Shown piece after piece: positions 2,987-64,000 of a DNA stretch of 64,000 nucleotides. The translations under genes were made by a program, and so were the position numbers. The stretch comes from Crossaster papposus. Lineage: Eukaryota; Echinodermata; Asteroidea; Velatida; Solasteridae. The stretch's first letter is position 1, and the number at the start of each line of letters is the position of its first letter. The stretch spans positions 434,001 through 498,000 of the forward strand of contig JBAIAA010000783.1 of NCBI GenBank assembly GCA_037893245.1, read 5' to 3'. Below the pieces are notes generated by a model. It was not told where the DNA came from and made no database searches. It saw only the letters and a list, made by a program, of their open reading frames with translations.

Positions 2987-3561
2987 TAACAATTATTATA
3001 AAAAGCCTTGTTGTGATGAATTCTTGTAAGAAAAATTTACTGCAGTTATAAAGACAAAATATCTCATCCACGCTTGGATTCGAACCCAGAACCTTTGAAT
3101 TAGAAGTCAAACGCGCTGATCCGTTGCGCCACGGGGACTGGGGAAACTTTGTAACTTTTATTTCGAAAAGCCTTGCTGTGATCAATTCTTGTAAGAAAAT
3201 TTATACAGCAGTTATAAAGACAAAATATCTCATCCCCGCTGGGATTCGAACCCAGAACCTTTGAATTAGAAGTCCACGCGCTGATCCGTTGCGCCACGGG
3301 GACTGGCGAAATTTTGTAACAATTATTTTAAAAAGTCTTGTTGTGATGAATTCTTGTAAGAACATTTATACTGCAGTTATAACGACAAAATATCTCATCC
3401 CCGCTGGGATTTGAACCCAGAACCTTTGAATTAGAAGTCAAACGCGCTGATCCGTTGCGCCAAAGGGACTGGAGAAATTGTGTAACAATTATTTTAAAAA
3501 GCCTTGTTGTGATCAATTCTTCTAAGAAAATTTATACTGCAGTTATAAAGTCAAAGTATCT

Positions 3562-3635
3562 TATCCCCGCTGGGATTCGAACACAGAACCTTTGTATTAT
3601 AAGTCCAACGCGCTGATCCGTTGCGCCACGGGGAC
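3562..3635 (-). pseudogene. Array unit with anticodon TAT (Ile-type)
   Basis: The anticodon (3601-3599) reads TAT instead of TCT, a single C35 to A change. The T stem is also damaged (CCCAG to TGTG form), so this copy is probably inactive. Confidence 0.6.
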
Positions 3636-6600
3636 TGGAGAAACTTTGTAACAATTATTTTAAAAAGCCTTGCTGTGATCAATTCTTGTAAGAAAATGTA
3701 TACAGCAGTTATAAAGAAAAAATATCTCATCCCCGCTTGGATTCGAACCCAGAACCTTTGAATTAGAAGTCCAACGCGCTGATCAGTTGCGCCCCGGGGA
3801 CTTGATAAACTTTGTAACAATTATTTTAAAAAGCCTTGTTGTGATCAATTCTTCTAAGAAAATGTATACTGCAGTTATAAAAACAAAGTATCTTATCTCC
3901 GCTGGGTTTCGAACCCAGAACCTTTGTATTAGAAGTCCAACGCGCTGATCCGTTGCGCCACGGGGACTGGAGAAACTTTGTAACAATTATTTTAAAAAGC
4001 CTTGCTGTGATCAATTCTTGTAAGAAAATGTATACAGCAGTTATAAAGACAAAATATCTCATCCCCGCTAGGATTTGAACCCAGAACCTTTGAATTAGAA
4101 GTCCAACGCGCTGATCAGTTGCGCCACGGGGACTCGATAAACTTTGTAACAATTATTTTAAAAAGCCTTGCTGTGATCAATTCTTGTAAGAAAATGTATA
4201 CAGCAGTTATAAAGACAAAATATCTCATCCCCGCTAGGATTTGAACCCAGAACCTTTGAATTAGAAGTCCAACGCGCTGATCAGTTGCGCCACGGGGACT
4301 CGATAAACTTTGTAACATTTATTTAAAAAAGCCTTGTTGTGATCAATTCTTGTAAGAAAATTTATACTGCAGTTATAAAGAAAAAATATCTCATCCCCGC
4401 TGGGATTCGAACCCAGAACCTTTGTATTAGAAGTCAGACTGATCTGTTGCGCCACGGGGACTGGAGAAACGTTGTAACAATTATTTTAAAAAGCCTTGTT
4501 GTGATGAATTGTTGTGAGAAAGTTTTACTGCAGTTATAAAGACAAAATATCTCATCCCCGCTGGGATTCGAACCCAGAACCTTTGAATTAGAAGTCAAAC
4601 GCGCTGATCCGTGGCGCCAAAGGGACTGGAGAAATTGTGTAACAATTATTTTAAAAATGCTTGTTGTGATCAATTTTTCTAAGAAATTTATAGTGCAGTT
4701 ATAAAGACAAAGTATCTTATCCCCGATGGGATTCAAACACAGAGCCTTTGTATTAGAAGTCCAACGCGCTGATCCGTTGAGCCACGGGGACTGGAGAAAC
4801 TTTGTAACAATTATTTTAAAAAGCCTTGCTGTAATCAATTCTTGTAAGAAAATTTATACTGCAGTTATAAAAAAAAAATATCTCATCCCCGCTGGGATTC
4901 GAACCCAGAACCTTTGAATTAGAAGTAAAACGCGCTGATCAGTTGCGCCACAGGGACTTGATAAACTTTGTAACAATTATTTTAAAAAGCCTTGTTGTGT
5001 TCAATTCTTGTAAGAACATTTATACTGCAGTTATAAAGACAAAATATCTCAACGCCGCTGGGATTCGAACCCAGAACCTTTGAATTAGAATGCTAACGCG
5101 CTGATCCGTTGTGCCACGGGGACTGGAGAAATGGTGTAACACTTATTTTAAAAAGCCTTGTTGTGATCAATTCTTCTAAGAAAAATTATACTGCAGTTAT
5201 AAAGACAAAATATCTCATCCCCGCTGGGATTCGAACCCAGAACAATTGAATTAAAAGTCCAACTGATCCGTTGCGCCACGGGGACTGGAGAGACTTTGTA
5301 ACAATTATTTTAAAAAGCCTTGTTGTGATGAATTGTTGTGAGAAAGTTTTACTGCAGTTATAAAGACAAAATATCTCATCCCCGCTGGGATTCGAACCCA
5401 GAACCTTTAAATTAGAAGTCAAACGCGCTGATCCGTTGCGCCAAAGGGACTGGAGAAATTGTGTAACAATTATTTTAAAAAGCCTTGCTGTGATCAATTC
5501 TTGTAAGAAAATGTATACAGCGGTTATAATGACAAAATATCTCATCTCCGCTGGGATTCGAACCCAGAACCTTTGAATTAGAAGTCCAACGCGCTGATCT
5601 GTTGCGCCACGGGGACTGGAGAAACTTTGTAACAATTATTTTAAAAAGCCTTGTTGTGATCAATTCTTGTAAAAAAATGTATACTGAAGTTATAAAGACA
5701 AAATATGTCATCCCCGCTAGGATTCGAACCCAGAACATTTGAATTAGAAGTCCAACGCCCTGATCCGTTGGGCCACGGGGACTGGAAAAACTGTGTAACA
5801 TTTATTTTAAAAAGCCTTGTTGTGATCAATTCTTGTAAGAAAATTTATACTGCAGTTATAAAGACAAAAAAATTTCATCCCCGCTGGAATTCGAACCCAG
5901 AACCTTTGAATTAGAAGTCCAACGCGCTGATCCGTTGCGCCACCGGAACTGGAGAAACTTTGTAAAAAAATATTTTTAAAAGCCTTGTTGTGATCAATTC
6001 TTGTAAGACAATTTATACTGCAGTTATAAATACAAAAAAACTCATCCCCGCTGGGATTCGAACCCAGAACCTTTGAATTAGAAGTCCAACGCGCTGATCC
6101 GTTGTGCCCCGGGACTGGATAAACTTTGTAAGAAATTGTTTTAAAAAGCCTTGTTGTAATCAATTCTTGTCAGGAAATTTATACTGCAGTTATAAAGACA
6201 AAATATCTCATCCACGCTTTGATTCGAACCCAGAACCTTTGAATTAGAAGTCCAACGCGCTGATCCGTTGCGCCACGGGGACTGGCGAAACTTTTTAACA
6301 ATTATTATAAAAAGCCTTGTTGTGATGAATTCTTGTAATAAAAATTTACTGCAGTTATAAAGACAAAATATCTCATCCCCGCCAGGATTCGAACCCAGAA
6401 CATTTGAATTAGAAGTCAAACGCGCTGATCCGTTGCGCCACGGGGACTGAAAAAACTGTGTAACATTTTTTTTTAAAAGCCTTGTTGTGATCAATTTTTG
6501 TAAGAAAATTTATACTGCAGTTATAAAGACAAAATATCTCATCCCCGTTAGGATTCGAACCCAGAACATTTGAATTAGAAGTCCAACGCCCTGATCCGTT

Positions 6601-8021
6601 GCGCCACGGGGACTGGAAAAACTGTGTAACATTTATTTTAAAAAGCCTTGTTGTGGTCAATTCTTGTAAGAAAATTTATACTGCAGTTATAAAGACAAAA
6701 AAATCTCATCCCCGCTGGAATTCGAACCCAGAACCTTTGAATTAGAAGTCCAACGCGCTGATCCGTTGCGCCACCGGGACTGGAGAAACTTTGTAAAAAT
6801 ATATTTTAAAAAGCCTTGTTGTGATGAATTCTTGTAATAAAAATTTACTGCAGTTATAAAGACAAAATATCTCATCCCCGCTAGGATTCGAACCCAGAAC
6901 ATTTGAATTAGAAGTCCAACGCGCTGATCCGTTGCGCCACGGGGACTGTAGAAACTTTGTAAGAAATTATTTTAAAAAGAATTGTTGTGATCAATTCTTG
7001 TAAGAAAATGTATACTGCAGTTATAAAGACAAAGTATCTTATCACCGCTGGGATTCGAACCCAGAACCTTTGAATTAGAAGTCCAACGCGCTGATCCGTT
7101 GCGCCACGGGGACTGGAAAAACTTTGTAACAATTATTTTAAAAAGCCTTGCTGTGATTAAATCTTGTAAGAAAATGTATACAGCAGTTATAAAGACAATA
7201 TATCTCATCCCCGCTTGGATTAGAACCCAGAACATTTGAATTAGAAGTCCAACGCGCTGATCAGTTGCGCCACAGGGACTCGATAAACTTTGTAACAATT
7301 ATTTTAAAAAGCCTTGTGATCAATTCTTGTAAGAAAATGTATACTGCAGTTATAAAGACAAAATATCTCATCCCCGCTGGGATTCGAACCCAAAACCTTT
7401 GGATTAGAAGTCAAACTGATCCGTTGCGCCACGGGGAGTGGAGAAACTTTGTAACAATTATTTTAAAAAGCTTTGTTGTGATGATTTCTTTTGTGAAAGT
7501 TTTACTGCAGTTATAAAGACAAAATATCTCATCCCCGCTGGGATTCCAACCCAGAACCTTTGAATTAGAATGCTAACGCGCTGATCCGTTGTGCCACGGG
7601 GACTGGAGAAACTGTGTAACATTTATTTTAAAAAGCCTTGTTGTGATCAATTCTTGTAAGAAAATTTATACTGCAGTTATAAAGAAAAAATATCTCATCC
7701 CCGTGGGATTCGAACCCAGAACCTTTGTGTTAGAAGTCAAACTGATCCGTTGCGCCACAGGGACTGGAGAAACTTTGTAACAATTATTTTAAAAAGCCTT
7801 GTTGTGATGAATTCTTGTGAGAAAGTTTTACTGCAGTTATAAAGACAAAATATCTCATCCCCAGTGGGATTTGAACCCAGAACCTTTGAATTAGAAGTCA
7901 AACGCGCTGATCCGTTGCGCCAAAGACAGTGGAGAAATTGTGTAACAATTATTTTAAAAAGCCTTGTTGTGATCAATTCTTCTAAGAACATTTATACTGC
8001 AGTTATAAAGACAAAATATCT

Positions 8022-8095
8022 CATCCCCGCTGGGATTCGAACCCAGAACAATTGAATTAAAAGTCCAACGCGCTGATCCGTTGCGCCACGGGGAC
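8022..8095 (-). tRNA. Array unit with anticodon TTT (Lys-type), intact fold
   Basis: The anticodon (8061-8059) reads TTT. All other arms are close to consensus: acceptor GTCCCCG/CGGGGAT, D stem GCGC/GCGC, T arm CTGGG-TTCGAAT-CCCAG. AAC-to-CAA changes next to the anticodon arm accompany it. If charged by sequence identity this would be a chimera of Arg body and Lys anticodon. Confidence 0.65.
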
Positions 8096-8686
8096 TGGAG
8101 AAACTTTGTAACAATTATTTTAAAAAGCTTTGTTGTGTTGAATTCTTTTGTGAAAGTTTTACTGCAGTTATAAAGACAAAATATCTCATCCCCGCTGGGA
8201 TTCGAAGCCAGAACCTTTGAATTAGAAGTCAAACGCGCTGATCCGTTTCGCCAAAGGGACTGGAGAAATTGTGTAACAATTATTTTAAAAAGCCTTGTTG
8301 TGATCAATTCTTCTAAGAAAATGTATACTGCAGTTATAAAGACAAAGTATCTTATCCCCGCTGGGATTCGAACACAGAACCTTTGTATTAGAAGTCCAAC
8401 GCGCTGATCCGTTGCGCCATGGGGACTGGAAAAACTTGGTAACAATTATTTTAAAAAGCCTTGCTGTGATCAATTCTTGTAAGAAAATGTATACAGCGGT
8501 TATAATGACAAAATATCTCATCTCCGCTGGGATTCGAACCCAGAACCTTTGAATTAGAAGTCCAACGCGCTGATCCGTTGCGCCACGGGGACTGGAGAAA
8601 CTTTGTAAGACATTATTTTAAAAAGCCTTGTTGTGATTAATTCTTGTCAGGAAATTTATACTGCAGTTATAAATACAAAAAAATCT

Positions 8687-8760
8687 CATCCCCGCTGGGA
8701 TTCGAACCCAGAACCTTTGAATTAGAAGTCCAACGCGCTGATCCGTTGCGCCACGGGGAC
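8687..8760 (-). tRNA. tRNA-Arg(UCU), exact consensus copy
   Basis: Identical to the 74-nt consensus described at 50244. A seven-T run follows the 3' end, a stronger pol III stop than the four Ts of most units. Its duplicate is at 13155. Confidence 0.9.
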
Positions 8761-11700
8761 TGGAGAAACTTTGTAAGACATTATTTTAAAAAGCCTTGTT
8801 GTGATCAATTCTTGTCAGGAAATTTATACTGCAGTTATAAAGACAAAATATCTCATCCACGCTTGGATTCGAACCCAGAACCTTTGAATTAGAAGTCCAA
8901 CGCGATGATCCGTTGCGCCACGGGGACTGGCGAAACTTTTTTTAAATTATTATAAAAAGCCTTGTTGTGATGAATTCTTGTAAGAAAAAATTACTGCAGT
9001 TATGAAGACAAAATATCTCATCCACGCTTGGATTCGAACCCAGAACCTTTGAATTAGAAGTCCAACGCGCTGATCCGTTGAGCCACGGGGACTGGAGAAA
9101 TGGTGTAACACTTATTTTAAAAAGCCTTGTTGTGATCAATTCTTCTAAGAAAAATTATACTGCAGTTATAAATACAAAAAATCTCATCCCCGCTGGGATT
9201 CGAACCCAGAACAATTGAATTAGAAGTCCAACGCGCTGATCCGTTGCGCCACGGGGACTGGAGAAACTTTGTAAGACATTATTTTAAAAAGCCTTGTTGT
9301 GATCAATTCTTGTCAGGAAATTTATACTGCAGTTATAAAGACAAAATATCTCATCCACGCTTGGATTCGAACCCAGAACCTTTGAATTAGAAGTCCAACG
9401 CGATGATCCGTTGCGCCACGGGGACTGGCGAAACTTTTTTTAAATTATTTTAAAAAGCCTTGTTGTGTTCAATTCTTGTAAGAACATTTATACTGCAGTT
9501 ATAAAGACAAAATATCTCAACGCCGCTGGGATTCGAACCCAGAACCTTTGAATTAGAATGCTAACGCGCTGATCCGTTGTGCCACGGGGACTGGAGAAAT
9601 GGTGTAACACTTATTTTAAAAAGCCTTGTTGTGATCAATTCTTCTAAGAAAAATTATACTGCAGTTATAAAGACAAAATATCTCATCCCCGCTGGGATTC
9701 GAACCCAGAACAATTGAATTAAAAGTCCAACTGATCCGTTGCGCCACGGGGACTGGAGAGACTTTGTAACAATTATTTTAAAAAGCCTTGTTGTGATGAA
9801 TTGTTGTGAGAAAGTTTTACTGCAGTTATAAAGACAAAATATCTCATCCCCGCTGGGATTCGAACCCAGAACCTTTAAATTAGAAGTCAAACGCGCTGAT
9901 CCGTTGCGCCAAAGGGACTGGAGAAATTGTGTAACAATTATTTTAAAAAGCCTTGCTGTGATCAATTCTTGTAAGAAAATGTATACAGCGGTTATAATGA
10001 CAAAATATCTCATCTCCGCTGGGATTCGAACCCAGAACCTTTGAATTAGAAGTCCAACGCGCTGATCTGTTGCGCCACGGGGACTGGAGAAACTTTGTAA
10101 CAATTATTTTAAAAAGCCTTGTTGTGATCAATTCTTGTAAAAAAATGTATACTGAAGTTATAAAGACAAAATATGTCATCCCCGCTAGGATTCGAACCCA
10201 GAACATTTGAATTAGAAGTCCAACGCCCTGATCCGTTGGGCCACGGGGACTGGAAAAACTGTGTAACATTTATTTTAAAAAGCCTTGTTGTGATCAATTC
10301 TTGTAAGAAAATTTATACTGCAGTTATAAAGACAAAAAAATTTCATCCCCGCTGGAATTCGAACCCAGAACCTTTGAATTAGAAGTCCAACGCGCTGATC
10401 CGTTGCGCCACCGGAACTGGAGAAACTTTGTAAAAAAATATTTTTAAAAGCCTTGTTGTGATCAATTCTTGTAAGACAATTTATACTGCAGTTATAAATA
10501 CAAAAAAACTCATCCCCGCTGGGATTCGAACCCAGAACCTTTGAATTAGAAGTCCAACGCGCTGATCCGTTGTGCCCCGGGACTGGATAAACTTTGTAAG
10601 AAATTGTTTTAAAAAGCCTTGTTGTAATCAATTCTTGTCAGGAAATTTATACTGCAGTTATAAAGACAAAATATCTCATCCACGCTTTGATTCGAACCCA
10701 GAACCTTTGAATTAGAAGTCCAACGCGCTGATCCGTTGCGCCACGGGGACTGGCGAAACTTTTTAACAATTATTATAAAAAGCCTTGTTGTGATGAATTC
10801 TTGTAATAAAAATTTACTGCAGTTATAAAGACAAAATATCTCATCCCCGCTAGGATTCGAACCCAGAACATTTGAATTAGAAGTCAAACGCGCTGATCCG
10901 TTGCGCCACGGGGACTGAAAAAACTGTGTAACATTTTTTTTTTAAAGCCTTGTTGTGATCAATTTTTGTAAGAAAATTTATACTGCAGTTATAAAGACAA
11001 AATATCTCATCCCCGTTAGGATTCGAACCCAGAACATTTGAATTAGAAGTCCAACGCCCTGATCCGTTGCGCCACGGGGACTGGAAAAACTGTGTAACAT
11101 TTATTTTAAAAAGCCTTGTTGTGGTCAATTCTTGTAAGAAAATTTATACTGCAGTTATAAAGACAAAAAAATCTCATCCCCGCTGGAATTCGAACCCAGA
11201 ACCTTTGAATTAGAAGTCCAACGCGCTGATCCGTTGCGCCACCGGGACTGGAGAAACTTTGTAAAAATATATTTTAAAAAGCCTTGTTGTGATGAATTCT
11301 TGTAATAAAAATTTACTGCAGTTATAAAGACAAAATATCTCATCCCCGCTAGGATTCGAACCCAGAACATTTGAATTAGAAGTCCAACGCGCTGATCCGT
11401 TGCGCCACGGGGACTGTAGAAACTTTGTAAGAAATTATTTTAAAAAGAATTGTTGTGATCAATTCTTGTAAGAAAATGTATACTGCAGTTATAAAGACAA
11501 AGTATCTTATCACCGCTGGGATTCGAACCCAGAACCTTTGAATTAGAAGTCCAACGCGCTGATCCGTTGCGCCACGGGGACTGGAAAAACTTTGTAACAA
11601 TTATTTTAAAAAGCCTTGCTGTGATTAAATCTTGTAAGAAAATGTATACAGCAGTTATAAAGACAATATATCTCATCCCCGCTTGGATTAGAACCCAGAA

Positions 11701-12489
11701 CATTTGAATTAGAAGTCCAACGCGCTGATCAGTTGCGCCACAGGGACTCGATAAACTTTGTAACAATTATTTTAAAAAGCCTTGTGATCAATTCTTGTAA
11801 GAAAATGTATACTGCAGTTATAAAGACAAAATATCTCATCCCCGCTGGGATTCGAACCCAAAACCTTTGGATTAGAAGTCAAACTGATCCGTTGCGCCAC
11901 GGGGAGTGGAGAAACTTTGTAACAATTATTTTAAAAAGCTTTGTTGTGATGATTTCTTTTGTGAAAGTTTTACTGCAGTTATAAAGACAAAATATCTCAT
12001 CCCCGCTGGGATTCCAACCCAGAACCTTTGAATTAGAATGCTAACGCGCTGATCCGTTGTGCCACGGGGACTGGAGAAACTGTGTAACATTTATTTTAAA
12101 AAGCCTTGTTGTGATCAATTCTTGTAAGAAAATTTATACTGCAGTTATAAAGAAAAAATATCTCATCCCCGTGGGATTCGAACCCAGAACCTTTGTGTTA
12201 GAAGTCAAACTGATCCGTTGCGCCACAGGGACTGGAGAAACTTTGTAACAATTATTTTAAAAAGCCTTGTTGTGATGAATTCTTGTGAGAAAGTTTTACT
12301 GCAGTTATAAAGACAAAATATCTCATCCCCAGTGGGATTTGAACCCAGAACCTTTGAATTAGAAGTCAAACGCGCTGATCCGTTGCGCCAAAGACAGTGG
12401 AGAAATTGTGTAACAATTATTTTAAAAAGCCTTGTTGTGATCAATTCTTCTAAGAACATTTATACTGCAGTTATAAAGACAAAATATCT

Positions 12490-12563
12490 CATCCCCGCTG
12501 GGATTCGAACCCAGAACAATTGAATTAAAAGTCCAACGCGCTGATCCGTTGCGCCACGGGGAC
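12490..12563 (-). tRNA. Array unit with anticodon TTT, duplicate of 8022
   Basis: Same sequence as 8022-8095 displaced by 4,468 bp; the anticodon lies at 12529-12527. Confidence 0.65.
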
Positions 12564-13154
12564 TGGAGAAACTTTGTAACAATTATTTTAAAAAGCTTTG
12601 TTGTGTTGAATTCTTTTGTGAAAGTTTTACTGCAGTTATAAAGACAAAATATCTCATCCCCGCTGGGATTCGAAGCCAGAACCTTTGAATTAGAAGTCAA
12701 ACGCGCTGATCCGTTTCGCCAAAGGGACTGGAGAAACTTTGTAACAATTATTTTAAAAAGCCTTGTTGTGATCAATTCTTCTAAGAAAATGTATACTGCA
12801 GTTATAAAGACAAAGTATCTTATCCCCGCTGGGATTCGAACACAGAACCTTTGTATTAGAAGTCCAACGCGCTGATCCGTTGCGCCATGGGGACTGGAAA
12901 AACTTGGTAACAATTATTTTAAAAAGCCTTGCTGTGATCAATTCTTGTAAGAAAATGTATACAGCGGTTATAATGACAAAATATCTCATCTCCGCTGGGA
13001 TTCGAACCCAGAACCTTTGAATTAGAAGTCCAACGCGCTGATCCGTTGCGCCACGGGGACTGGAGAAACTTTGTAAGACATTATTTTAAAAAGCCTTGTT
13101 GTGATTAATTCTTGTCAGGAAATTTATACTGCAGTTATAAATACAAAAAAATCT

Positions 13155-13228
13155 CATCCCCGCTGGGATTCGAACCCAGAACCTTTGAATTAGAAGTCCA
13201 ACGCGCTGATCCGTTGCGCCACGGGGAC
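13155..13228 (-). tRNA. tRNA-Arg(UCU), exact consensus copy
   Basis: Duplicate of 8687-8760 in the second 4,468-bp copy, with the same seven-T stop. Confidence 0.9.
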
Positions 13229-14322
13229 TGGAGAAACTTTGTAAGACATTATTTTAAAAAGCCTTGTTGTGATCAATTCTTGTCAGGAAATTTATACTGC
13301 AGTTATAAAGACAAAATATCTCATCCACGCTTGGATTCGAACCCAGAACCTTTGAATTAGAAGTCCAACGCGATGATCCGTTGCGCCACGGGGACTGGCG
13401 AAACTTTTTTTAAATTATTATAAAAAGCCTTGTTGTGATGAATTCTTGTAAGAAAAAATTACTGCAGTTATGAAGACAAAATATCTCATCCACGCTTGGA
13501 TTCGAACCCAGAACCTTTGAATTAGAAGTCCAACGCGCTGATCCGTTGAGCCACGGGGACTGGAAAAGTTTTGTATGAAAATATTTTAAAAAGCCTTGTT
13601 GTGATCAATTCTTGTAGGACAATTTATACTGCCGATATAAATACAAAAAAATCTTATCCCCGCTGGGATTCGAACCCAGAACCTTTGAATTAGAAGTCCA
13701 ACGCGCTGATTCGTTGCGCAACGGGGACTGGAGAAACTTTGTAAGACATTATTTTAAAAAGCCTTGTTGTGATCAATTCTTGTCAGGAAATTTATACTGC
13801 AGTTATAAAGACAAAATATTTCATCCACGCTTGGATTCGAACCCAGAACCTTTGAATTAGAAGTCCAACACGCTGATCCGTTGAGCCACGGGGACTGGAT
13901 AAACTGTGTAACTTTTATTTCAAAAAGCCTTGTTGTGATCAATTCTTGTAAGAAAATTTATACTGCAGTTATAAAGACAAAATATCTCATCCCCGCTAGG
14001 ATTCGAAACCAGAAAATTTGAATTAGAAGTCCAACGCGCTGTTCCGTTGCGCCACGGAGACTGGAAAAATTGTGTAACATTTATTTTAAAAAGCCTTGTT
14101 GTGATCAATTCTTGTAAGAAAATTTATACTGCAGTTATAAAGACACAAAAGTATCATCCCCGCTGGGATTCGAACCCAGAACCTTTGAATTAGAAGTCCA
14201 ACGCGCTGATCCGTTGCGCAACGGGGACTGGATAAACTTTGTAAAAAATTATTTTAAAAAGCCTTGTTGTGATCAATTCTTGTAAGAAAATGTATACTGC
14301 AGTTATAAAGACAAACAAATCT

Positions 14323-15441: not shown

Positions 15442-15661
15442 CATCCCCGCTGGGGGAACCTTTGAATTAGAAGTCCAACGCGCTGATCCGTTGCGCCACG
15501 GGGACTGTAGAAACTTTGTAACAATTATTTAAAAAAGCCTTGTTGTGATCAATTCTTGTAAGAAAATTTATACTGCAGTTATAAAGACAAAATATCTCAT
15601 CCCCGCTGGGAAAACCTTTGAATTAGAAGTCCAACGCGCTCATCCGTTGCGCCACGGGGAC
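15442..15661 (-). pseudogene. Two tandem units lacking the B box
   Basis: The units 15442-15505 and 15598-15661 are 64 nt instead of 74. The T loop and one T-stem strand (the GGTTCGAAT region) are deleted while the acceptor, D and anticodon arms remain. Without a T arm and B box neither normal pol III recruitment nor a cloverleaf is expected. Confidence 0.85.
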
Positions 15662-50317: not shown

Positions 50318-50322
50318 AGATA

Positions 50323-51243: not shown

Positions 51244-51463
51244 GTCCCCGTGGCGCAACGGATCAGCGCGTTGGACTTCTAATTCAAAGGTTCTCCCAGC
51301 GGGGATGAGATATTTTCTCTTTATAACTGCAGTATAAATTTTCTTACAAGAATTGATCACAACAAGGCTTTTTTAAATAATTGTTACAAAGTTTCTACAG
51401 TCCCCGTGGCGCAACGGATCAGCGCGTTGGACTTCTAATTCAAAGGTTTCCCCAGCGGGGATG
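51244..51463 (+). pseudogene. Two tandem B-box-deleted units
   Basis: Units 51244-51307 (GGTTCTCCCAGC) and 51400-51463 (GGTTTCCCCAGC) lack 10 nt of the T arm and carry the CTACAG leader. Confidence 0.85.
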
Positions 51464-51886
51464 AGATATTTTGTCTTTATAACTGCAATATAAATTTTCT
51501 TACTAGAATTGATCACAACAAGGCTTTTTAAAATAATTGTTACAAAGTTTCTCCAGTCCCCGTGGCGCAACAGGGAAGCGCGTTGGAGTTCTAATTTAAA
51601 GGTTCTGGGTTCGAATCCTTGCGGGGATGAGATATTTTGTCTTTATAACTGCAGTATAAATTTTCTTACAAGAATTGATCACAACAAGGCTTTTTTAAAT
51701 AATTGTTACAAAGTTTCTACAGTCCCCGTGGCGCAACGGATCAGCGCGTTTGACTTCTAATTCAAAGGTCCTGGGTTCGAATCCCAGCGGGGATGAGATA
51801 TGTTGTCTTTATAACTCTAGTATACATTTTCTTATTAAATTGATCACAGCAAGGCTTTGTAAAATAATTGTTACAAAGTTGCTCGA

Positions 51887-51960
51887 GTCCCCGTGGCGCA
51901 ACGGATCAGCGCGTTGGACTTCGAATACAAAGGTTCTGTGTTTGAATCCCAGCGGGGATG
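51887..51960 (+). tRNA. Array unit with anticodon TCG
   Basis: Plus-strand member of the TCG class (anticodon 51921-51923). T stem CTGTG and loop TTTGAAT weaken the B box. The spacer deletion after the tRNA removes the T run, exactly as in the minus-strand copies. Related units with an extra C in the acceptor lie at 57151, 57961 and 59112. Confidence 0.55.
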
Positions 51961-52042
51961 AGATATTAACTGCAGTATACATTTTCTTACAAGAATTGAT
52001 CACAACAAGGCTTTTTAAAATAAATGTTAAACAATTTCTCCA

Positions 52043-52116
52043 GTCCCCGTGGCGCAACGGATCAGCGCGTTGGACTTCTAATTCAAAGGTTCTGGGTTCG
52101 AATCCCAGCGGGGATG
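52043..52116 (+). tRNA. tRNA-Arg(UCU), exact consensus copy
   Basis: Consensus tRNA downstream of the TCG-class unit, the same neighbour order as on the minus strand (14955 beside 15111). Confidence 0.9.
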
Positions 52117-53369
52117 AGATATTTTGTCTTTATAACTGCAGTATAAATTTTCTTACAAGAATTGATCACAACAAGGCTTTTTAAAATAACTGTTACAAAG
52201 TTTCTTCAGTCCCCGTGGCGCAACGGATCAGCGCGTTGGACTTCTAATTCAAATGTTCTGGGTTCGAATCCTAGCGGGGATGAGATATTTTGTCGTTATA
52301 ACTGCAGTATAAATTTTCTTACAAGAATTGATCACAACAAGGATTTTTGAAATAAAAGTTACAAAGTTTATCCAGTCCCCGTGGCTCAACGGATCAGCGC
52401 GTTGGACTTCTAATTCAAAGGTTCTGGGTTCGAATCTAAGCGTGGATGAGATATTTTGTCTTTATAACTGCAGTAAATTTTTCTTACAAGAATTCATCAC
52501 AACAAGGCTTTTTATAATAATTGTTAAAAAGTTTCGCCAGTCCCCGTGGCGCAACAGATCAGCGCGTTGGACTTCTAATTCAAAGGTTCTGGGTTCGAAT
52601 CCAAGCGTGGATGAGATATTTTGTCTTTATAACTGCAGTATAAATGTTCTTACAAGAATTGATCACAACAAGGCTTTCTAAAATAATTGTTACAAAGTTT
52701 CTCCAGTCCCCGTGGCGCAACGGATCAGAGCGTTGGACTTCTAATTCAAATGTTCTGGGTTCGAATCCCAGCGGGGATGAGATATTTTGTCTTTATAACT
52801 GCAGTATAAAATTTCTTACAAGAATTGATCACAACAAGGCTTTTTGAAATAAAAGTTACAAAGTTTATCCAGACCTTGGCTCAACGGATCAGCGCGTTGG
52901 ACTTCTAATTCAAAGGTTATGGGTTCGAATCCAAGCGTGGATGAGATATTTTGTCTTTATAACTGCAGTATACATTTTCTTACAAGAATTGATCACAACA
53001 AGGCTTTTTAAAATAATTTCTTACAAAGTTTCTCCAGTCCCCGTGGCGCAACGGATCAGCGCGTTGGACTTCTAATTCAAAGGTTCTGGGTTCGAATTCC
53101 AGCGGGGATGATATTTTTGTGTCTTTATAACTGCAGTATAAATTTTCTTACAAGAATTGATCACAACAAGGCTTTTTAAAATAAATGTTACACAATTTTT
53201 CCAGTCCCCGTGGCGCAACGGAACAGCGCGTTAGACTTCTAATTCAAATTTTCTAGGTTAGAATCCTAGCGGGGATGAGATATTTTGTCTTTATAACTGC
53301 AGTATAAATTTTCTTACAAGAATTGATCACAACAAGGCTTTCTAAAATAAATGTTAAAAAGTTTCTCCA

Positions 53370-53443
53370 GTCCCCGTGGCGCAACGGATCAGCGCGTTGG
53401 ACTTCTAATTCAAAGGTTCTGGGTTCGAATCCCAGCGGGGATG
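53370..53443 (+). tRNA. tRNA-Arg(UCU), exact consensus copy
   Basis: Consensus with the four-T stop; the upstream spacer has the CTTTCTAAAATAAATG variant. Confidence 0.9.
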
Positions 53444-53703
53444 AGATATTTTGTCTTTATAACTGCAGTATAAATGTTTTCTTACAAGAATTGACCACAA
53501 CAAGGTTTTTTAAAATAATTGTTACAAAGTTTCTCCAGTCCCCGTGGCGCAAAGGATCAGCGCGTTGGAATTCTAATTCAAAGGTTCTGGGTTCGAATCC
53601 TTGCGGGGATGAGATATTTTGTCTTTATAACTGCAGTATAAATTTTCTTACAAGAATTGATCACAACAAGGCTTTTTTAAATAATTGTTACAAAGTTTCT
53701 ACA

Positions 53704-53923
53704 GTCCCCGTGGCGCAACGGATCAGCGCGTTGGACTTCTAATTCAAAGGTTCTCCCAGCGGGGATGAGATATTCTGTCTTTATAACTGCAGTATAAATT
53801 TTCTTACAAGAATTGATCACAACAAGGCTTTTTTAAATAATTGTTACAAAGTTTCTACAGTCCCCGTGGCGCAACGGATCAGCGCGTTGGACTTCTAATT
53901 CAAAGGTTCCCCCAGCGGGGATG
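53704..53923 (+). pseudogene. Two tandem B-box-deleted units
   Basis: Units 53704-53767 and 53860-53923; they recur 2,307 bp later at 56011-56230. Confidence 0.85.
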
Positions 53924-56010
53924 AGATATTTTGTCTTTATAACTGCAGTATAAATTTTCTTACAAGAATTGATCACAACAAGGCTTTTTAAAATAATTGT
54001 TACAAATTTTCTCCAGTCCCCGTGGCGCAACGGATCAGAGCGTTGGAATTCTAATTCAAATGTTCTGGGTTCGAATCCCAGCGGGGATGAGATATTTTGT
54101 CTTTATAACTGTAGTATAAATTTTCTTACAAGAATTGATCACAACAAGGCTTTTTAAAATAATTGTTACAAAGTTTCTCCAGTCCCCGTGGCGCAACAGG
54201 GAAGCGCGTTGGAATTCTAATTTAAAGGTTCTGGGTTCGAATCCTTGCGGAGATTAGATATTTTGTCTTTATAACTGCAGTATCAATTTTCTTACAAGAA
54301 TTGATCACAACAAGGCTTTTTTAAATAATTGTTACAAAGTTTCTACAGTCCCCGTGGCGCAACGGATCAGCGCGTTTGACTTCTAATTCAAAGGTCCTGG
54401 GTTCGAATCCCAGCGGGGATGAGATATGTTGTCTTTATAACTCTAGTATACATTTTCTTATTAAATTGATCACAGCAAGGCTTTTTAAAATAATTGTTAC
54501 AAAGTTGCTCGAGTCCCCCGTGGCGCAACGGATCAGCGCGTTGGACTTCTAATTCAAAGGTTCTGGGTTCGAATCCAAGCGTGGATGAGATATTTTGTTT
54601 TTATAACTGCAGTATAAATGTTCTTACAAGAATTGATCACAACAAGGCTTTTTAAAATAATTGTTACAAAGTTTCTCTAGTCCCCGTGGCGCAACGGATC
54701 AGAGCGTTGGACTTCTAATTCAAATGTTCTGGGTTCGAATCCCAGCGGGGATGAGATATTTTGTCTTTATAACTGCAGTATAAAATTTCTTACAAGAATT
54801 GATCACAACAAGGCTTTTTGAAATAAAAGTTACAAAGTTTATCCAGACCTTGGCTCAACGGATCAGCGCGTTGGACTTCTAATTCAAAGGTTATGGGTTC
54901 GAATCCAAGCGTGGATGAGATATTTTGTCTTTATAACTGCAGTATACATTTTCTTACAAGAATTGATCACAACAAGGCTTTTTAAAATAATTTCTTACAA
55001 AGTTTCTCCAGTCCCCGTGGCGCAACGGATCAGCGCGTTGGACTTCTAATTCAAAGGTTCTGGGTTCGAATTCCAGCGGGATGATATTTTTGTGTCTTTA
55101 TAACTGCAGTATAAATTTTCTTACAAGAATTGATCACAACAAGGCTTTTTAAAATAAATGTTACACAATTTTTCCAGTCCCCGTGGCGCAACGGAACAGC
55201 GCGTTAGACTTCTAATTCAAATTTTCTAGGTTAGAATCCTAGCGGGGATGAGATATTTTGTCTTTATAACTGCAGTATAAATTTTCTTACAAGAATTGAT
55301 CACAACAAGGCTTTCTAAAATAAATGTTAAAAAGTGTCTCCAATCCCCGTGGCGCAACGGATCAGCGCATTGGACTTCTAATTCAAAAGTTCTAGATTCG
55401 AATCCCAGCGGGGATGAGATATTTTGTCTTTATAACTGCAGTATACATTTTTTCTTACAAAAATTGATCACAACAAGGCTTTTTAAAATAATTGTTACAA
55501 GGTTTCTCCAGTCCCCGTGGCGGAACGGATCAGCGCGTTGGACTTCTAATTCAAAGGTTCTGGGTTCGAATCCCAGCGGGGATGAGATATTTTGTCTTTA
55601 TAACTGCAGTATAAATTTTTTTACAAGAATTGATCACAACAAGGCTTTTCAAAATAATTGTTACAAAGTTTCTCCATTCCCCGTGGCGCAACGGATCAGC
55701 GCATTGGACTTCTAATTCAAAAGTTGTGGATTCGAATCCCAGCGGGGATGAGATATTTTGTCTTTATAACTGCAGTATAAATGTTTTCTTACAAGAATTG
55801 ATCACAACAAGGTTTTTTAAAATAATTGTTACAAAGTTTCTCCAGTCCCCGTGGCGCAAAGGATCAGCGCGTTGGAATTCTAATTCAAAGGTTCTGGGTT
55901 CGAATCCTTGCGGGGATGAGATATTTTGTCTTTATAACTGCAGTATAAATTTTCTTACAAGAATTGATCACAACAAGGCTTTTTTAAATAATTGTTACAA
56001 AGTTTCTACA

Positions 56011-56230
56011 GTCCCCGTGGCGCAACGGATCAGCGCGTTGGACTTCTAATTCAAAGGTTCTCCCAGCGGGGATGAGATATTCTGTCTTTATAACTGCAGT
56101 ATAAATTTTCTTACAAGAATTGATCACAACAAGGCTTTTTTAAATAATTGTTACAAAGTTTCTACAGTCCCCGTGGCGCAACGGATCAGCGCGTTGGACT
56201 TCTAATTCAAAGGTTCCCCCAGCGGGGATG
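56011..56230 (+). pseudogene. Two tandem B-box-deleted units
   Basis: Units 56011-56074 and 56167-56230, duplicates of the pair at 53704. Confidence 0.85.
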
Positions 56231-57639
56231 AGATATTTTGTCTTTATAACTGCAGTATAATTTTTCTTACAAGAATTGATCACAACAAGGCTTTTTAAAA
56301 TAATTGTTACAAATTTTCTCCAGTCCCCGTGGCGCAACGGATCAGAGCGTTGGAATTCTAATTCAAATGTTCTGGGTTCGAATCCCAGCGGGGATGAGAT
56401 ATTTTGTCTTTATAACTGCAGTATAAAATTTCTTACAAGAATTGATCACAACAAGGCTTTTTGAAATAAAAGTTACAAAGTTTATCCAGACCTTGGCTCA
56501 ACGGATCAGCGCGTTGGACTTCTAATTCAAAGGTTATGGGTTCGAATCCAAGCGTGGATGAGATATTTTGTCTTTATAACTGCAGTATACATTTTCTTAC
56601 AAGAATTGATCACAACAAGGCTTTTTAAAATAATTTCTTACAAAGTTTCTCCAGTCCCCGTGGCGCAACGGATCAGCGCGTTGGACTTCTAATTCAAAGG
56701 TTCTGGGTTCGAATCCTTGCGGGGATGAGATATTTTGTCTTTATAACTGCAGTATAAATTTTCTTACAAGAATTGATCACAACAAGGCTTTTTAAAATAA
56801 TTGTTACAAAGTTTCTCCAGTCCCCGTGGCGCAACAGGGAAGCGCGTTGGAATTCTAATTTAAAGGTTCTGGGTTCGAATCCTTGCGGAGATGAGATATT
56901 TTGTCTTTATAACTGCAGTATCAATTTTCTTACAAGAATTGATCACAACAAGGCTTTTTTAAATAATTGTTACAAAGTTTCTACAGTCCCCGTGGCGCAA
57001 CGGATCAGCGCGTTTGACTTCTAATTCAAAGGTCCTGGGTTCGAATCCCAGCGGGGATGAGATATGTTGTCTTTATAACTCTAGTATACATTTTCTTATT
57101 AAATTGATCACAGCAAGGCTTTTTAAAATAATTGTTACAAAGTTGCTCGAGTCCCCCGTGGCGCAACGGATCAGCGCGTTGGACTTCGAATACAAAGGTT
57201 CTGTGTTTGAATCCCAGCGGGGATGAGATATTAACTGCAGTATACATTTTCTTACAAGAATTGATCACAACAAGGCTTTTTAAAATAAATGTTAAACAAT
57301 TTCTCCAGTCCCCGTGGCGCAACGGATCAGCGCGTTGGACTTCTAATTCAAAGGTTCTGGGTTTGTATCCCAGCGGGGATGAGATATTTTGTCTTTATAA
57401 CTGCAGTATAAATTTTCTTACAAGAATTGATCACAACAAGGCTTTTTAAAATAACTGTTACAAAGTTTCTCCAGTCTCCGTGGCGCAACGGATCAGCGCG
57501 TTGGACTTCTAATTCAAAGGTTCTGGGTTCGAATCCCAGCGGGGATGAGATATTTTGTCTTTATAACTGCAGTATAAATTTTCTTACAAGAATTGATCAC
57601 AACAAGGCTTTTTTAAATAATTGTTACAAAGTTTCTACA

Positions 57640-57703
57640 GTCCCCGTGGCGCAACGGATCAGCGCGTTGGACTTCTAATTCAAAGGTTCTCCCAGCGGGG
57701 ATG
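57640..57703 (+). pseudogene. B-box-deleted unit
   Basis: 64 nt with CTACAG leader. The following spacer reads GATATATT in place of GAGATATT. Confidence 0.85.
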
Positions 57704-58117
57704 ATATATTTTGTCTTTATAACTGCAGTATAAATTTTCTTACAAGAATTGATCACAACAAGGCTTTTTTAAATAATTGTTACAAAGTTTCTACAGTCCC
57801 CGTGGCGCAACGGATCAGCGCGTTTGACTTCTAATTCAAAGGTCCTGGGTTCGAATCCCAGCGGGGATGAGATATGTTGTCTTTATAACTCTAGTATACA
57901 TTTTCTTATTAAATTGATCACAGCAAGGCTTTTTAAAATAATTGTTACAAAGTTGCTCGAGTCCCCCGTGGCGCAACGGATCAGCGCCTTGGACTTCGAA
58001 TACAAAGGTTCTGTGTTTGAATCCCAGCGGGGATGAGATATTAACTGCAGTATACATTTTCTTACAAGAATTGATCACAACAAGGCTTTTTAAAATAAAT
58101 GTTAAACAATTTCTCCA

Positions 58118-58191
58118 GTCCCCGTGGCGCAACGGATCAGCGCGTTGGACTTCTAATTCAAAGGTTCTGGGTTCGAATCCCAGCGGGGATG
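58118..58191 (+). tRNA. tRNA-Arg(UCU), exact consensus copy
   Basis: Consensus; downstream of a TCG-class unit, as at 52043. Confidence 0.9.
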
Positions 58192-59553
58192 AGATATTTT
58201 GTCTTTATAACTGCAGTATAAATGTTCTTACAAGAATTGATCACAACAAGGCTTTTTAAAATAATTGTTACAAATTTTCTCCAGTCGCCGTGGCGCAACG
58301 GATCAGAGCGTTGGACTTCTAATTCAAATGTTCTGGGTTCGAATCCCAGCGGGGATGAGATATTTTGTCTTTATAACTGCAGTATAAAATTTCTTACAAG
58401 AATTGATCACAACAAGGCTTTTTGAAATAAAAGTTACAAAGTTTATCCAGACCTTGGCTCAACGGATCAGCGCGTTGGACTTCTAATTCAAAGGTTATGG
58501 GTTCGAATCCAAGCGTGGATGAGATATTTTGTCTTTATTACTGCAGTATACATTTTCTTACAAGAATTGATCACAACAAGGCTTTTTAAAATAATTTCTT
58601 ACAAAGTTTCTCCAGTCCCCGTGGCGCAACGGATCAGCGCGTTGGACTTCTAATTCAAAGGTTCTGGGTTCGAATCCTTGCGGGGATGAGATATTTTGTC
58701 TTTATAACTGCAGTATAAATTTTCTTACAAGAATTGATCACAACAAGGCTTTTTAAAATAATTGTTACAAAGTTTCTCCAGTCCCCGTGGCGCAACAGGG
58801 AAGCGCGTTGGAATTCTAATTTAAAGGTTCTGGGTTCGAATCCTTGCGGAGATGAGATATTTTGTCTTTATAACTGCAGTATCAATTTTCTTACAAGAAT
58901 TGATCACAACAAGGCTTTTTTAAATAATTGTTACAAAGTTTCTACAGTCCCCGTGGCGCAACGGATCAGCGCGTTTGACTTCTAATTCAAAGGTCCTGGG
59001 TTCGAATCCCAGCAGGGATGAGATATGTTGTCTTTATAACTCTAGTATACATTTTCTTATTAAATTGATCACAGCAAGGCTTTTTAAAATAATTGTTACA
59101 AAGTTGCTCGAGTCCCCCGTGGCGCAACGGATCAGCGCCTTGGACTTCGAATACAAAGGTTCTGTGTTTGAATCCCAGCGGGGATGAGATATTAACTGCA
59201 GTATACATTTTCTTACAAGAATTGATCACAACAAGGCTTTTTAAAATAAATGTTAAACAATTTCTCCAGTCCCCGAGGCGCAACGGATCAGCCCGTTGGA
59301 CTTCTAATTCAAAGGTTCTGGGTTCGAATCCCAGCGGGGATGAGATATTTTGTCTTTATAACTGCAGTATAAATTTTCTTACAAGAATTGATCACAACAA
59401 GGCTTTTTAAAATAACTGTTACAAAGTTTCTCCAGTCCCCGTGGCGCAACGGATCAGCGCGTTGGACTTCTAATTCAAATGTTCTGGGTTCGAATCCTAG
59501 CGGGGATGAGATATTTTGTCGTTATAACTGCAGTATAAATTTTCTTACAAGAA

Positions 59554-60137
59554 TTGATCACAACAAGGATTTTTGAAATAAAAGTTACAAAGTTTATCCA
59601 GTCCCCGTGGCTCAACGGATCAGCGCGTTGGACTTCTAATTCAAAGGTTCTGGGTTCGAATCTAAGCGTGGATGAGATATTTTGTCTTTATAACTGCAGT
59701 AAATTTTTCTTACAAGAATTCATCACAACAAGGCTTTTTATAATAATTGTTAAAAAGTTTCGCCAGTCCCCGTGGCGCAACAGATCAGCGCGTTGGACTT
59801 CTAATTCAAAGGTTCTGGGTTCGAATCCAAGCGTGGATGAGATATTTTGTTTTTATAACTGCAGTATAAATGTTCTTACAAGAATTGATCACAACAAGGC
59901 TTTTTAAAATAATTGTTAAAAAGTTTCGCCAGTCCCCGTGGCGCAACAGATCAGCGCGTTGGACTTCTAATTCAAAGGTTCTGGGTTCGAATCCAAGCGT
60001 GGATGAGATATTTTGTCTTTATAACTGCAGTATACATTTTCTTACAAGAATTGATCACAACAAGGCTTTTTAAAATAATTTCTTACAAAGTTTCTCCAGT
60101 CCCCGTGGCGCAACGGATCAGCGCGTTGGACTTCTAA
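59554..60137 (+). repeat. Duplicated plus-strand block, copy 1 (offset 1,832 bp)
   Basis: Units here recur at about 61386-61969, including the GGATTTTTGAAATAAAAG spacer and CAACAGATCAGCG D loop. It also mirrors minus-strand units around 16700-17200. Confidence 0.8.
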
Positions 60138-61100
60138 TTCAAAGGTTCTGGGTTCGAATTCCAGCGGGGATGATATTTTTGTGTCTTTATAACTGCAGTA
60201 TAAATTTTCTTACAAGAATTGATCACAACAAGGCTTTTTAAAATAAATGTTACACAATTTTTCCAGTCCCTGTGGCGCAACGGAACAGCGCGTTAGACTT
60301 CTAATTCAAATTTTCTAGGTTAGAATCCTAGCGGGGATGAGATATTTTGTCTTTATAACTGCAGTATAAATTTTCTTACAAGAATTGATCACAACAAGGC
60401 TTTCTAAAATAAATGTTAAAAAGTGTCTCCAGTCCCCGTGGCGCAACGGATCAGCGCATTGGACTTCTAATTCAAAAGTTCTAGATTCGAATCCCAGCGG
60501 GGATGAGATATTTTGTCTTTATAACTGCAGTATACATTTTTTCTTACAAGAATTGATCACAACAAGGCTTTTTAAAATAATTGTTACAAAGTTTCTCCAG
60601 TCCCCGTGGCGCAACGGATCAGCGCGTTGGACTTCTAATTCAAAGGTTCTGGGTTCGAATTCCAGCGGGGATGATATTTTTGTGTCTTTATAACTGCAGT
60701 ATAAATTTTCTTACAAGAATTGATCACAACAAGGCTTTTTAAAATAAATGTTACACAATTTTTCCAGTCCCCGTGGCGCAACGGAACAGCGCGTTAGACT
60801 TCTAATTCAAATTTTCTAGGTTAGAATCCTAGCGGGGATGAGATATTTTGTCTTTATAACTGCAGTATAAATTTTCTTACAAGAATTGATCACAACAAGG
60901 CTTTCTAAAATAAATGTTAAAAAGTGTCTCCAGTCCCCGTGGCGCAACGGATCAGCGCATTGGACTTCTAATTCAAAAGTTCTAGATTCGAATCCCAGCG
61001 GGGATGAGATATTTTGTCTTTATAACTGCAGTATACATTTTTTCTTACAAGAATTGATCACAACAAGGCTTTTTAAAATAATTGTTACAAAGTTTCTCCA

Positions 61101-61174
61101 GTCCCCGTGGCGCAACGGATCAGCGCGTTGGACTTCTAATTCAAAGGTTCTGGGTTCGAATCCCAGCGGGGATG
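61101..61174 (+). tRNA. tRNA-Arg(UCU), exact consensus copy
   Basis: First of two adjacent exact copies, 166 bp apart. Confidence 0.9.
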
Positions 61175-61266
61175 AGATATTTTGTCTTTATAACTGCAGT
61201 ATAAATTTTCTTACAAGAATTGATCACAACAAGGCTTTTTAAAATAATTGTTACAAAGTTTCTCCA

Positions 61267-61340
61267 GTCCCCGTGGCGCAACGGATCAGCGCGTTGGACT
61301 TCTAATTCAAAGGTTCTGGGTTCGAATCCCAGCGGGGATG
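61267..61340 (+). tRNA. tRNA-Arg(UCU), exact consensus copy
   Basis: Second of two adjacent exact copies. The downstream spacer has GTCGTTATAAC. Confidence 0.9.
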
Positions 61341-63265
61341 AGATATTTTGTCGTTATAACTGCAGTATAAATTTTCTTACAAGAATTGATCACAACAAGG
61401 ATTTTTGAAATAAAAGTTACAAAGTTTATCCAGTCCCCGTGGCTCAACGGATCAGCGCGTTGGACTTCTAATTCAAAGGTTCTGGGTTCGAATCTAAGCG
61501 TGGATGAGATATTTTGTCTTTATAACTGCAGTAAATTTTTCTAACAAGAATTCATCACAACAAGGCTTTTTATAATAATTGTTAAAAAGTTTCGCCAGTC
61601 CCCGTGGCGCAACAGATCAGCGCGTTGGACTTCTAATTCAAAGGTTCTGGGTTCGAATCCAAGCGTGGATGAGATATTTTGTTTTTATAACTGCAGTATA
61701 AATGTTCTTACAAGAATTGATCACAACAAGGCTTTTTAAAATAATTGTTAAAAAGTTTCGCCAGTCCCCGTGGCGCAACAGATCAGCGCGTTGGACTTCT
61801 AATTCAAAGGTTCTGGGTTCGAATCCAAGCGTGGATGAGATATTTTGTCTTTATAACTGCAGTATACATTTTCTTACAAGAATTGATCACAACAAGGCTT
61901 TTTAAAATAATTTCTTACAAAGTTTCTCCAGTCCCCGTGGCGCAACGGATCAGCGCGTTGGACTTCTAATTCAAAGGTTCTGGGTTCGAATTCCAGCGGG
62001 GATGATATTTTTGTGTCTTTATAACTGCAGTATAAATTTTCTTACAAGAATTGATCACAACAAGGCTTTTTAAAATAAATGTTACACAATTTTTCCAGTC
62101 CCCGTGGCGCAACGGAACAGCGCGTTAGACTTCTAATTCAAATATTCTAGGTTAGAATCCTAGCGGGGATGAGATATTTTGTCTTTATAACTGCAGTATA
62201 AATTTTCTTACAAGAATTGATCACAACAAGGCTTTCTAAAATAAATGTTAAAAAGTGTCTCCAGTCCCCGTGGCGCAACGGATCAGCGCATTGGACTTCT
62301 AATTCAAAAGTTCTAGATTCGAATCCCAGCGGGGATGAGATATTTTGTCTTTATAACTGCAGTATACATTTTTTCTTACAAGAATTGATCACAACAAGGC
62401 TTTTTAAAATAATTGTTACAAAGTTTCTCCAGTCCCCGTGGCGCAACTGATCAGCGCGTTGGACTTCTAATTCAAAGGTTCTGGGTTCGAATCCCAGCGG
62501 GGATGAGATATTTTGTCTTTATAACTGCAGTATAAATTTTCTTACAATAATTGATCACAACAAGGCTTTTTAAAATAATTGTTACAAAGTTTCTCCAGTC
62601 CCCGTGGCGCAACGGATCAGCGCATTGGACTTCTAATTCAAAAGTTGTGGATTCGAATCCCAGCGGGGATGAGATATTTTGTCTTTATAACTGCAGTATA
62701 AATGTTTTCTTACAAGAATTGATCACAACAAGGTTTTTTAAAATAATTGTTACAAAGTTTCTCCAGTCCCCGTGGCGCAAAGGATCAGCGCGTTGGAATT
62801 CTAATTCAAAGGTTCTGGGTTCGAATCCTTGCGGGGATGAGATATTTTGTCTTTATAACTGCAGTATAAATTTGCTTACAAGAATTGATCACAACAAGGC
62901 TTTTTTAAATAATTGTTACAAAGTTTCTCCAGTCCCCGTGGCGCAACGGATCAGCGCATTGGACTTCTAATTCAAAAGTTGTGGATTCGAATCCCAGCGG
63001 GGATGAGATATTTTGTCTTTATAACTGCAGTATAAATGTTTTCTTACAAGAATTGATCACAACAAGGTTTTTTAAAATAATTGTTACAAAGTTTCTCCAG
63101 TCCCCGTGGCGCAAAGGATCAGCGCGTTGGAATTCTAATTCAAAGGTTCTGGGTTCGAATCCTTGCGGGGATGAGATATTTTGTCTTTATAACTGCAGTA
63201 TAAATTTTCTTACAAGAATTGATCACAACAAGGCTTTTTTAAATAATTGTTACAAAGTTTCTACA

Positions 63266-63329
63266 GTCCCCGTGGCGCAACGGATCAGCGCGTTGGACTT
63301 CTAATTCAAAGGTTCTCCCAGCGGGGATT
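63266..63329 (+). pseudogene. B-box-deleted unit
   Basis: 64 nt with CTACAG leader; followed by GATTAGATATTTTG. Confidence 0.85.
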
Positions 63330-64000
63330 AGATATTTTGTCTTTATAACTGCAGTATAAATTTGCTTACAAGAATTGATCACAACAAGGCTTTTTGAAAT
63401 AAAAGTTACAAAGTTTATCCAGACCTTGGCTCAACGGATCAGCGCGTTGGACTTCTAATTCAAAGGTTATGGGTTCGAATCCAAGCGTGGATGAGATATT
63501 TTGTCTTTATTACTGCAGTATACATTTTCTTACAAGAATTGATCACAACAAGGCTTTTTAAAATAATTTCTTACAAAGTTTCTCCAGTCCCCGTGGCGCA
63601 ACGGATCAGCGCGTTGGACTTCTAATTCAAAGGTTCTGGGTTCGAATCCTTGCGGGGATGAGATATTTTGTCTTTATAACTGCAGTATAAATTTTCTTAC
63701 AAGAATTGATCACAACAAGGCTTTTTAAAATAATTGTTACAAAGTTTCTCCAGTCCCCGTGGCGCAACAGGGAAGCGCGTTGGAATTCTAATTTAAAGGT
63801 TCTGGGTTCGAATCCTTGCGGAGATGAGATATTTTGTCTTTATAACTGCAGTATCAATTTTCTTACAAGAATTGATCACAACAAGGCTTTTTTAAATAAT
63901 TGTTACAAAGTTTCTACAGTCCCCGTGGCGCAACGGATCAGCGCGTTTGACTTCTAATTCAAAGGTCCTGGGTTCGAATCCCAGCAGGGATGAGATATGT

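Follow-up and report, generated by a model that had tools for sequence, protein, structure and literature searches.

Structure and extent of the tRNA-Arg(UCU) array

The stretch of DNA under study, called the window below, comprises 64,000 nucleotides of the Crossaster papposus assembly GCA_037893245.1 (contig JBAIAA010000783.1, hereafter C783, positions 434,001 to 498,000), and its main content is a tandem array of a unit of about 166 bp that carries a tRNA-Arg(UCU) gene. An nhmmer search, for which one single 166-bp unit served as query at a cut-off of E ≤ 1e-5, yields 352 matches between 2,986 and 63,998, with 266 on the minus strand and 86 on the plus strand. The first-pass annotation had described roughly 350 units of 166 bp built around one tRNA, with at least 24 exact 74-nucleotide copies, and both figures agree with ours: the consensus period is 166 bp, and the exact gene is present 24 times (7 plus, 17 minus). 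The monomer consists of the 74-bp gene with RNA polymerase III (Pol III) boxes and a T-run, plus a 92-bp spacer. Of about 350 steps between units on the same strand, 168 measure precisely 166 bp, and 236 of the 352 units are distinct. The consensus bears a TTTTTAAAATAA motif in the region before the gene and lacks an A-rich tail, and Tandem Repeats Finder (TRF) at score 50 detects no short tandem repeats inside the units of the window.

The first-pass annotation needs correction on several points: an insert interrupts the array, its strand changes, and it extends past position 64,000. The array is laid out as follows.

2986 to 33932, minus strand: tRNA-Arg(UCU) satellite, first part of the minus block (from unit matches and period)
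33933 to 37008, no strand: transposon-like insert (inverted ends, target duplication)
37009 to 49869, minus strand: tRNA-Arg(UCU) satellite, second part of the minus block (from unit matches and period)
49869 to 49870, no strand: strand switch in truncated units (from the orientation of the flanking units)
49870 to 64000, plus strand: tRNA-Arg(UCU) satellite, plus block, running past the window (from unit matches and neighbouring pieces)

The insert of 3,076 bp is the sole large gap among the unit matches. Its ends are perfect inverted repeats of 15 bp, the 3-bp target CAT is duplicated, and the longest listed frame is 105 amino acids. The strand switch corresponds to contig position 483,869, and its junction lies inside truncated units. 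As the neighbouring pieces of the contig indicate, the array continues past the window to an end at about 519.46 to 519.52 kb, with a second strand switch near 510.65 kb, and is flanked on both sides by a satellite built from initiator-tRNA(Met). The whole array comprises 482 units over 82.5 kb, which is the long head-to-tail arrangement of a short monomer that characterises satellite DNA.

Growth by block duplication

Three multi-unit blocks of the minus strand are doubled in tandem, at identities of 99.8 to 99.9%.

5124 to 13560, minus strand: tandem block with a lag of 27 units, in which 24 units match (4 substitutions over an alignment of 3,969 bp)
15507 to 22097, minus strand: tandem-duplicated block of 20 units (3 substitutions over an alignment of 3,296 bp)
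39070 to 48223, minus strand: tandem block with a lag of 28 units, in which 27 units match (7 substitutions over an alignment of 4,496 bp)

Altogether, 267 of the 352 units sit in runs of at least four units that recur at 97% identity or more. Neighbouring units resemble each other no more closely than random pairs do (0.887 versus 0.883), so the units appear to have spread by blocks rather than singly. The array thus displays the block duplication and local homogenisation of a satellite. Units on a second contig, C163, were compared with those on C783 and with each other: in a piece of 29 units the best matches average 0.977 on C783, which has the advantage of 477 candidates, versus 0.972 among themselves, and a second piece with 15 units gives 0.947 and 0.952. 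These patterns would be explained most simply by unequal exchange or duplication of blocks, together with movement between contigs. A passage of an earlier study (PMC2888827) discusses tRNA genes as a hindrance to replication forks, linked to instability.

Intact and defective genes

ARAGORN, run with the bacterial code, reports 304 tRNAs in the window. With the Rfam tRNA model (RF00005), 336 matches in the Arg array reach 29 bits (11 + 125 + 110 + 90), in addition to three initiator-tRNA(Met) modules, and by hand count 90 matches in the array reach 60 bits, some of them with an altered anticodon. The anticodon TCT is found in 326 of the 352 units and the A box in 307. Two genes illustrate the intact type.

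8687 to 8760, minus strand: exact, fully paired tRNA-Arg(UCU) gene (Rfam 66.2 bits)
50244 to 50317, plus strand: tRNA-Arg(UCU) gene of the plus block (Rfam 66.2 bits)

The 352 units contain 155 distinct gene sequences; 292 genes are ungapped 74-mers, and 86 of those are free of mispairs. A strict cloverleaf test, which demands no mispair, the anticodon TCT and the invariant positions and scores genes with indels as failures, is passed by 59 of the 352 units and failed by 293. Among the 59 intact units, 46 also have the A box, the B box and a TTTT within 10 nucleotides. Outside the window, 15/129 units are strictly intact in the rest of the C783 array, 13/46 on C163 and 20/68 on a third contig, C729. 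The first-pass annotation had named a finding that nearly all units are pseudogenes as evidence against its proposal; the counts stop short of that, although by the strict test a clear majority of the units is defective.

Sequence change in genes and spacers

Genes and spacers of the window change at similar rates. Parsimony assigns 4.43 changes per site to the gene and 4.76 to the spacer among 234 distinct units (permutation p = 0.32), and the gene/spacer ratio is 0.97 (confidence interval 0.75 to 1.23) when only changes away from the consensus are counted. A tRNA-Lys positive control looks different: across 14 distinct units, none of which had itself served to choose its locus, the 1,022 gene cells contain no difference and the 7,519 flank cells contain 140. 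Set against this control, the ratio of 0.97 gives the Arg genes no clear conservation beyond their spacers, such as a functional cluster should have.

The stems point in the same direction. In 127 distinct ungapped genes, no covariation beyond shuffles is found, with 92.5% paired cells in both real and shuffled data and a covariation score of 0.044 versus 0.043, which 173 of 500 shuffles equal or exceed. The stems allow 126 variants; those observed number 71, with 56 pair-breaking and 15 pair-keeping, and the pair-keeping share (15/71) is at chance level (P = 0.24). A pair-breaking variant is present in 9.6 copies on average and a pair-keeping one in 12.1. The window array is at odds with strong selection on every copy and shows the drift without structural constraint expected of a satellite; this holds for the array on C783 and is less clear on C729. 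The variants of the window also lack a transition bias, transitions making up 103 of 298 distinct variants.

Copies elsewhere in the genome

Genome searches covered 1.02 Gb in 1,841 contigs. An exact 24-mer of the Arg gene occurs 1,929 times and the exact whole 74-nucleotide gene 465 times, with no hit for the reversed pattern each time, which excludes a chance origin of the repeats. The Arg unit forms tandem arrays on at least three contigs (C783, C163 and C729), so that the family occupies several places, as satellite families do. Among the matches listed, near-matches on C729 extend from 5 to 243 kb, and the only occurrence outside tandem arrays is one broken dimer on C17. Scaled by the density of the sampled tracts, the Arg satellite may total about 0.50 to 0.75 Mb, or 3,000 to 4,500 units; this size and that of the initiator satellite below are rough because density differs several-fold between tracts.

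A first pattern for a dispersed, ordinary tRNA-Arg(UCU) gene has no hit genome-wide, and a second one hits 180 places, of which one lies outside arrays among 100 matches listed. This lone near-match to the ordinary T arm (C699:202541-202574) could be a dispersed gene or a relic.

The focus of the first-pass annotation on a single isoacceptor holds within the C783 Arg array and fails for the genome, where initiator-Met and Lys(UUU) arrays are present too. The tRNA-Lys(UUU) arrays were found on C479 (three pieces) and C424 (one piece), with units of 576 to 770 bp. In these four pieces, 16 of 19 genes score 72 to 79 bits, the rest scoring 66.5, 66.5 and 61.8, and an exact Lys 27-mer occurs 703 times genome-wide (reversed control 0). 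A further contig, C8, is 5.3 Mb long and is probably a cobiont or symbiont chromosome within the assembly; its oxidase genes have open frames under the ordinary code, and the ends of its tRNA genes include an encoded CCA. Its tRNA-Lys and tRNA-Asn genes, which have this CCA, were discarded as bacterial. On contig C1841 (16,330 bp), judged by a conserved motif, COX1 seems best translated with AAA as Asn and ATA as Ile, in keeping with a mitochondrial code of echinoderm type.

Initiator-tRNA(Met) satellite and contig surroundings

The beginning of the window is part of the initiator-tRNA(Met) satellite, with an insertion, and not an unrelated flank.

1 to 2987, plus strand: initiator-tRNA(Met) satellite with a period of about 398 bp, degenerate modules and an insertion at about 89 to 1,914 (from period, Rfam and five initiator-like modules)

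The period of 398 bp is found at 1915 to 2987, with Rfam tRNA matches at 2460-2531, 2684-2755 and 2858-2929. The insertion lies inside an initiator-tRNA module and is rich in the inverted motifs gattcgta and tacgaatc. Around the Arg array, the satellite has periods of about 398, 805 and 1,203 bp. Genome-wide, an exact initiator 25-mer occurs 14,181 times, and 4,731 places match a 33-mer taken from the sound 5' half with at most one mismatch (reversed controls 0 for both). Roughly scaled, the satellite would amount to about 15 Mb by the density of the C783 tracts (68 matches in 73,231 bp), or to 8.5 Mb by that of a 3-kb piece of contig C146 (five matches).

None of the 397 modules in the sampled pieces of C783 is fully paired. 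We considered the idea that all initiator modules are decayed, which is true of 397/397 on C783 and is refuted by C146, where 5/19 modules of the 3-kb piece (5/15 at the C783 threshold) are fully paired and one is identical to the 72-nucleotide reference; this piece was chosen for holding sound initiator 5' halves.

The sampled parts of C783 are largely, though not wholly, tandem repeat, with two sampled pieces in which TRF reports nothing. Samples taken from 200 to 396 kb contain a satellite of 584 bp whose unit includes an inverted repeat; the three samples scanned with Rfam gave no match. Tandem repeats of 942 and 43 bp occur elsewhere on the contig. The repeats of 584, 942 and 43 bp are no more than suggestive of a heterochromatic or centromeric location.

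Origin of the array

We consider it likely that tandem tRNA-Arg(UCU) genes became a satellite in which selection on each copy is too weak to keep most of them intact. A functional tRNA-Arg(UCU) gene would first have been duplicated in tandem; the array would then have expanded through unequal exchange and multi-kilobase block duplication and been transferred to several contigs. At hundreds of copies, selection on a single copy would be too weak against decay, and for this reason genes and spacers would drift alike and broken copies would be duplicated along with intact ones. The intact minority would persist by recent descent from good copies, perhaps aided by weak selection on the pool of Arg copies, which is possible, and may supply the cell with this tRNA. 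Of the two readings offered by the first-pass annotation, the recruitment of a tRNA gene as a satellite is thus the one supported, by the missing clear contrast between genes and spacers, the null covariation, the block duplications and the presence on several contigs, and further by the amplification of pair-breaking variants to about the same extent as pair-keeping ones. The other, a massively amplified decoding capacity, receives no clear support, with 293 of 352 units failing the strict test, although 465 perfect genes exist genome-wide.

Several observations weigh against the satellite explanation. By plain mismatches, the gene/spacer ratio is below 1 in all four Arg samples, though none is significant: 0.88 in the window (p = 0.24), 0.77 in the rest of the array (p = 0.13), 0.74 on C163 (p = 0.09) and 0.63 on C729 (p = 0.053; confidence interval 0.40 to 1.06). 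With this ratio and its 20/68 intact units, the C729 array may be more constrained. The parsimony tree takes recombination between units as absent, which is unlikely to be strictly true. In a first test, 62 of 191 stem changes keep the pair, against 45.4 expected (P = 0.0002); without reversions these are 46 of 172 against 38.1 (P = 0.057). With the excess so weakened and covariation null, we rejected it as evidence of selection, and the value that is left makes weak constraint possible. The Lys control loci were picked through a top-scoring neighbour, and the flank nearest the Lys gene varies little (3 variable positions in 100 columns, 8 of 1,400 cells), so that the gene-versus-flank contrast rests on the farther flank. 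Finally, 465 exact genes are a large pool.

That pool also speaks for a working high-dose array, in which many units are transcribed to meet a need for a large supply of tRNA-Arg(UCU) and the defective ones are passengers. The 59 strictly intact units of the window, including 46 that also have both promoter boxes and the TTTT, the denser intact units on C729 and the near absence of a dispersed gene by the two patterns (none, and one outside arrays among 100 listed of 180) agree with this explanation. However, the genes of the C783 array show no clear constraint, defective variants have been copied about as freely as sound ones, and an initiator family of about 8 to 15 Mb, with no fully paired module among 397 on C783, is hard to ascribe to demand. 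On balance we regard a high-dose array as unlikely.

An array inflated by the assembler, in its copy number or its doubled blocks, is very unlikely: haplotype duplication could mimic three blocks at 99.8 to 99.9% identity, but 236 of 352 units are distinct, an insert with a target duplication lies inside the array, the strand switches, and further contigs carry arrays as well. Least probable of all, to our mind, is a tRNA-derived retroposon (short interspersed element, SINE) turned tandem. SINE-derived satellites are known, and a tRNA head of about 74 bp with a tail of about 92 bp would suit such an origin. Against it, an A-rich tail is missing from the consensus unit, which includes the pre-gene region with TTTTTAAAATAA, and apart from the broken dimer on C17 the unit is tandem on C163, C729 and C783 among the matches listed.

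A bolder extension of the satellite explanation is that whole tRNA genes, above all the initiator, became major satellites. What remains of their Pol III promoters would now act in chromosome structure, in heterochromatin, at the centromere or as a boundary, in place of translation or in addition to it. We think this quite improbable as matters stand.

Comparison with known tRNA arrays and satellites

In alpha-satellite higher-order repeats, a monomer of near-nucleosome length is combined with duplication of multi-monomer blocks, inversions and transposon insertion. The Arg array is similar in its roughly nucleosome-length monomer, block duplications, inversions and transposon-like insert, and it differs in that its monomer is a recognisable Pol III gene and its large blocks are merely doubled.

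A tRNA satellite is not new as a kind, since one is in print for maize: the passage describing tRNASAT_ZM (Repbase) gives an array of 91.95 kb on chromosome 4L (PMC10335936). By that description, it resembles the Arg array in being tRNA-related, in forming one long array of similar length and in being ranked with ordinary satellites. The likeness is one of description, the passage stating neither tRNA type nor unit length nor degree of decay for this plant array. The Arg unit differs in occurring on at least three contigs and beside a far larger initiator-tRNA satellite.

Entamoeba also has long tandem arrays of tRNA-gene units, described in the consulted passages as about 4,500 copies in units with one or a few genes, for several tRNAs (PMC2652664). 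According to the same passages, the copies are mostly uniform, pseudogenes are not clearly in evidence, and the genes are separated by short tandem repeats, whereas the Arg array has 59/352 strictly intact units, 155 gene sequences and no such repeats by TRF. Lacking both uniform copies and intergenic short repeats, the array is not of the Entamoeba type, and it further differs in being block-duplicated and confined to one isoacceptor.

For Nematostella and zebrafish, parts of PMC2888827 report that tRNA genes and pseudogenes number in the thousands, with clusters of at least 50 and rapid turnover, and an Arg(TCT)/Thr cluster that includes pseudogenes appears in a figure legend; those parts describe neither a block-duplicated 166-bp satellite of a single isoacceptor nor a megabase-scale initiator-tRNA satellite. 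Echinoderm assemblies likewise have large, method-dependent tRNA totals: 14,926 in Asterias (PMC10625585), 5,836 in Holothuria scabra (PMC11082199), and in Apostichopus 4,963 versus 1,127 in an older assembly (PMC10344927) and 1,032 after repeat filtering (PMC8580430). The passages giving these totals do not mention the arrangement of the genes.

Our literature search, with most subscription journals outside it, turned up no satellite described as being built from tRNA-Arg or initiator tRNA. The unusual part of the locus is the nesting of the Arg array in a megabase-scale initiator-tRNA satellite, for which we found no published description.

Significance

The array would represent a gene family caught in turning into satellite DNA. 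Since sound Lys arrays, half-decayed Arg arrays and initiator arrays of mixed sound and decayed modules coexist, the steps can be compared within one genome. Masking of repeats ahead of tRNA annotation, as applied in the consulted part of a sea cucumber study (PMC8580430), could remove or hide such arrays, and raw tRNA counts need not reflect decoding capacity.

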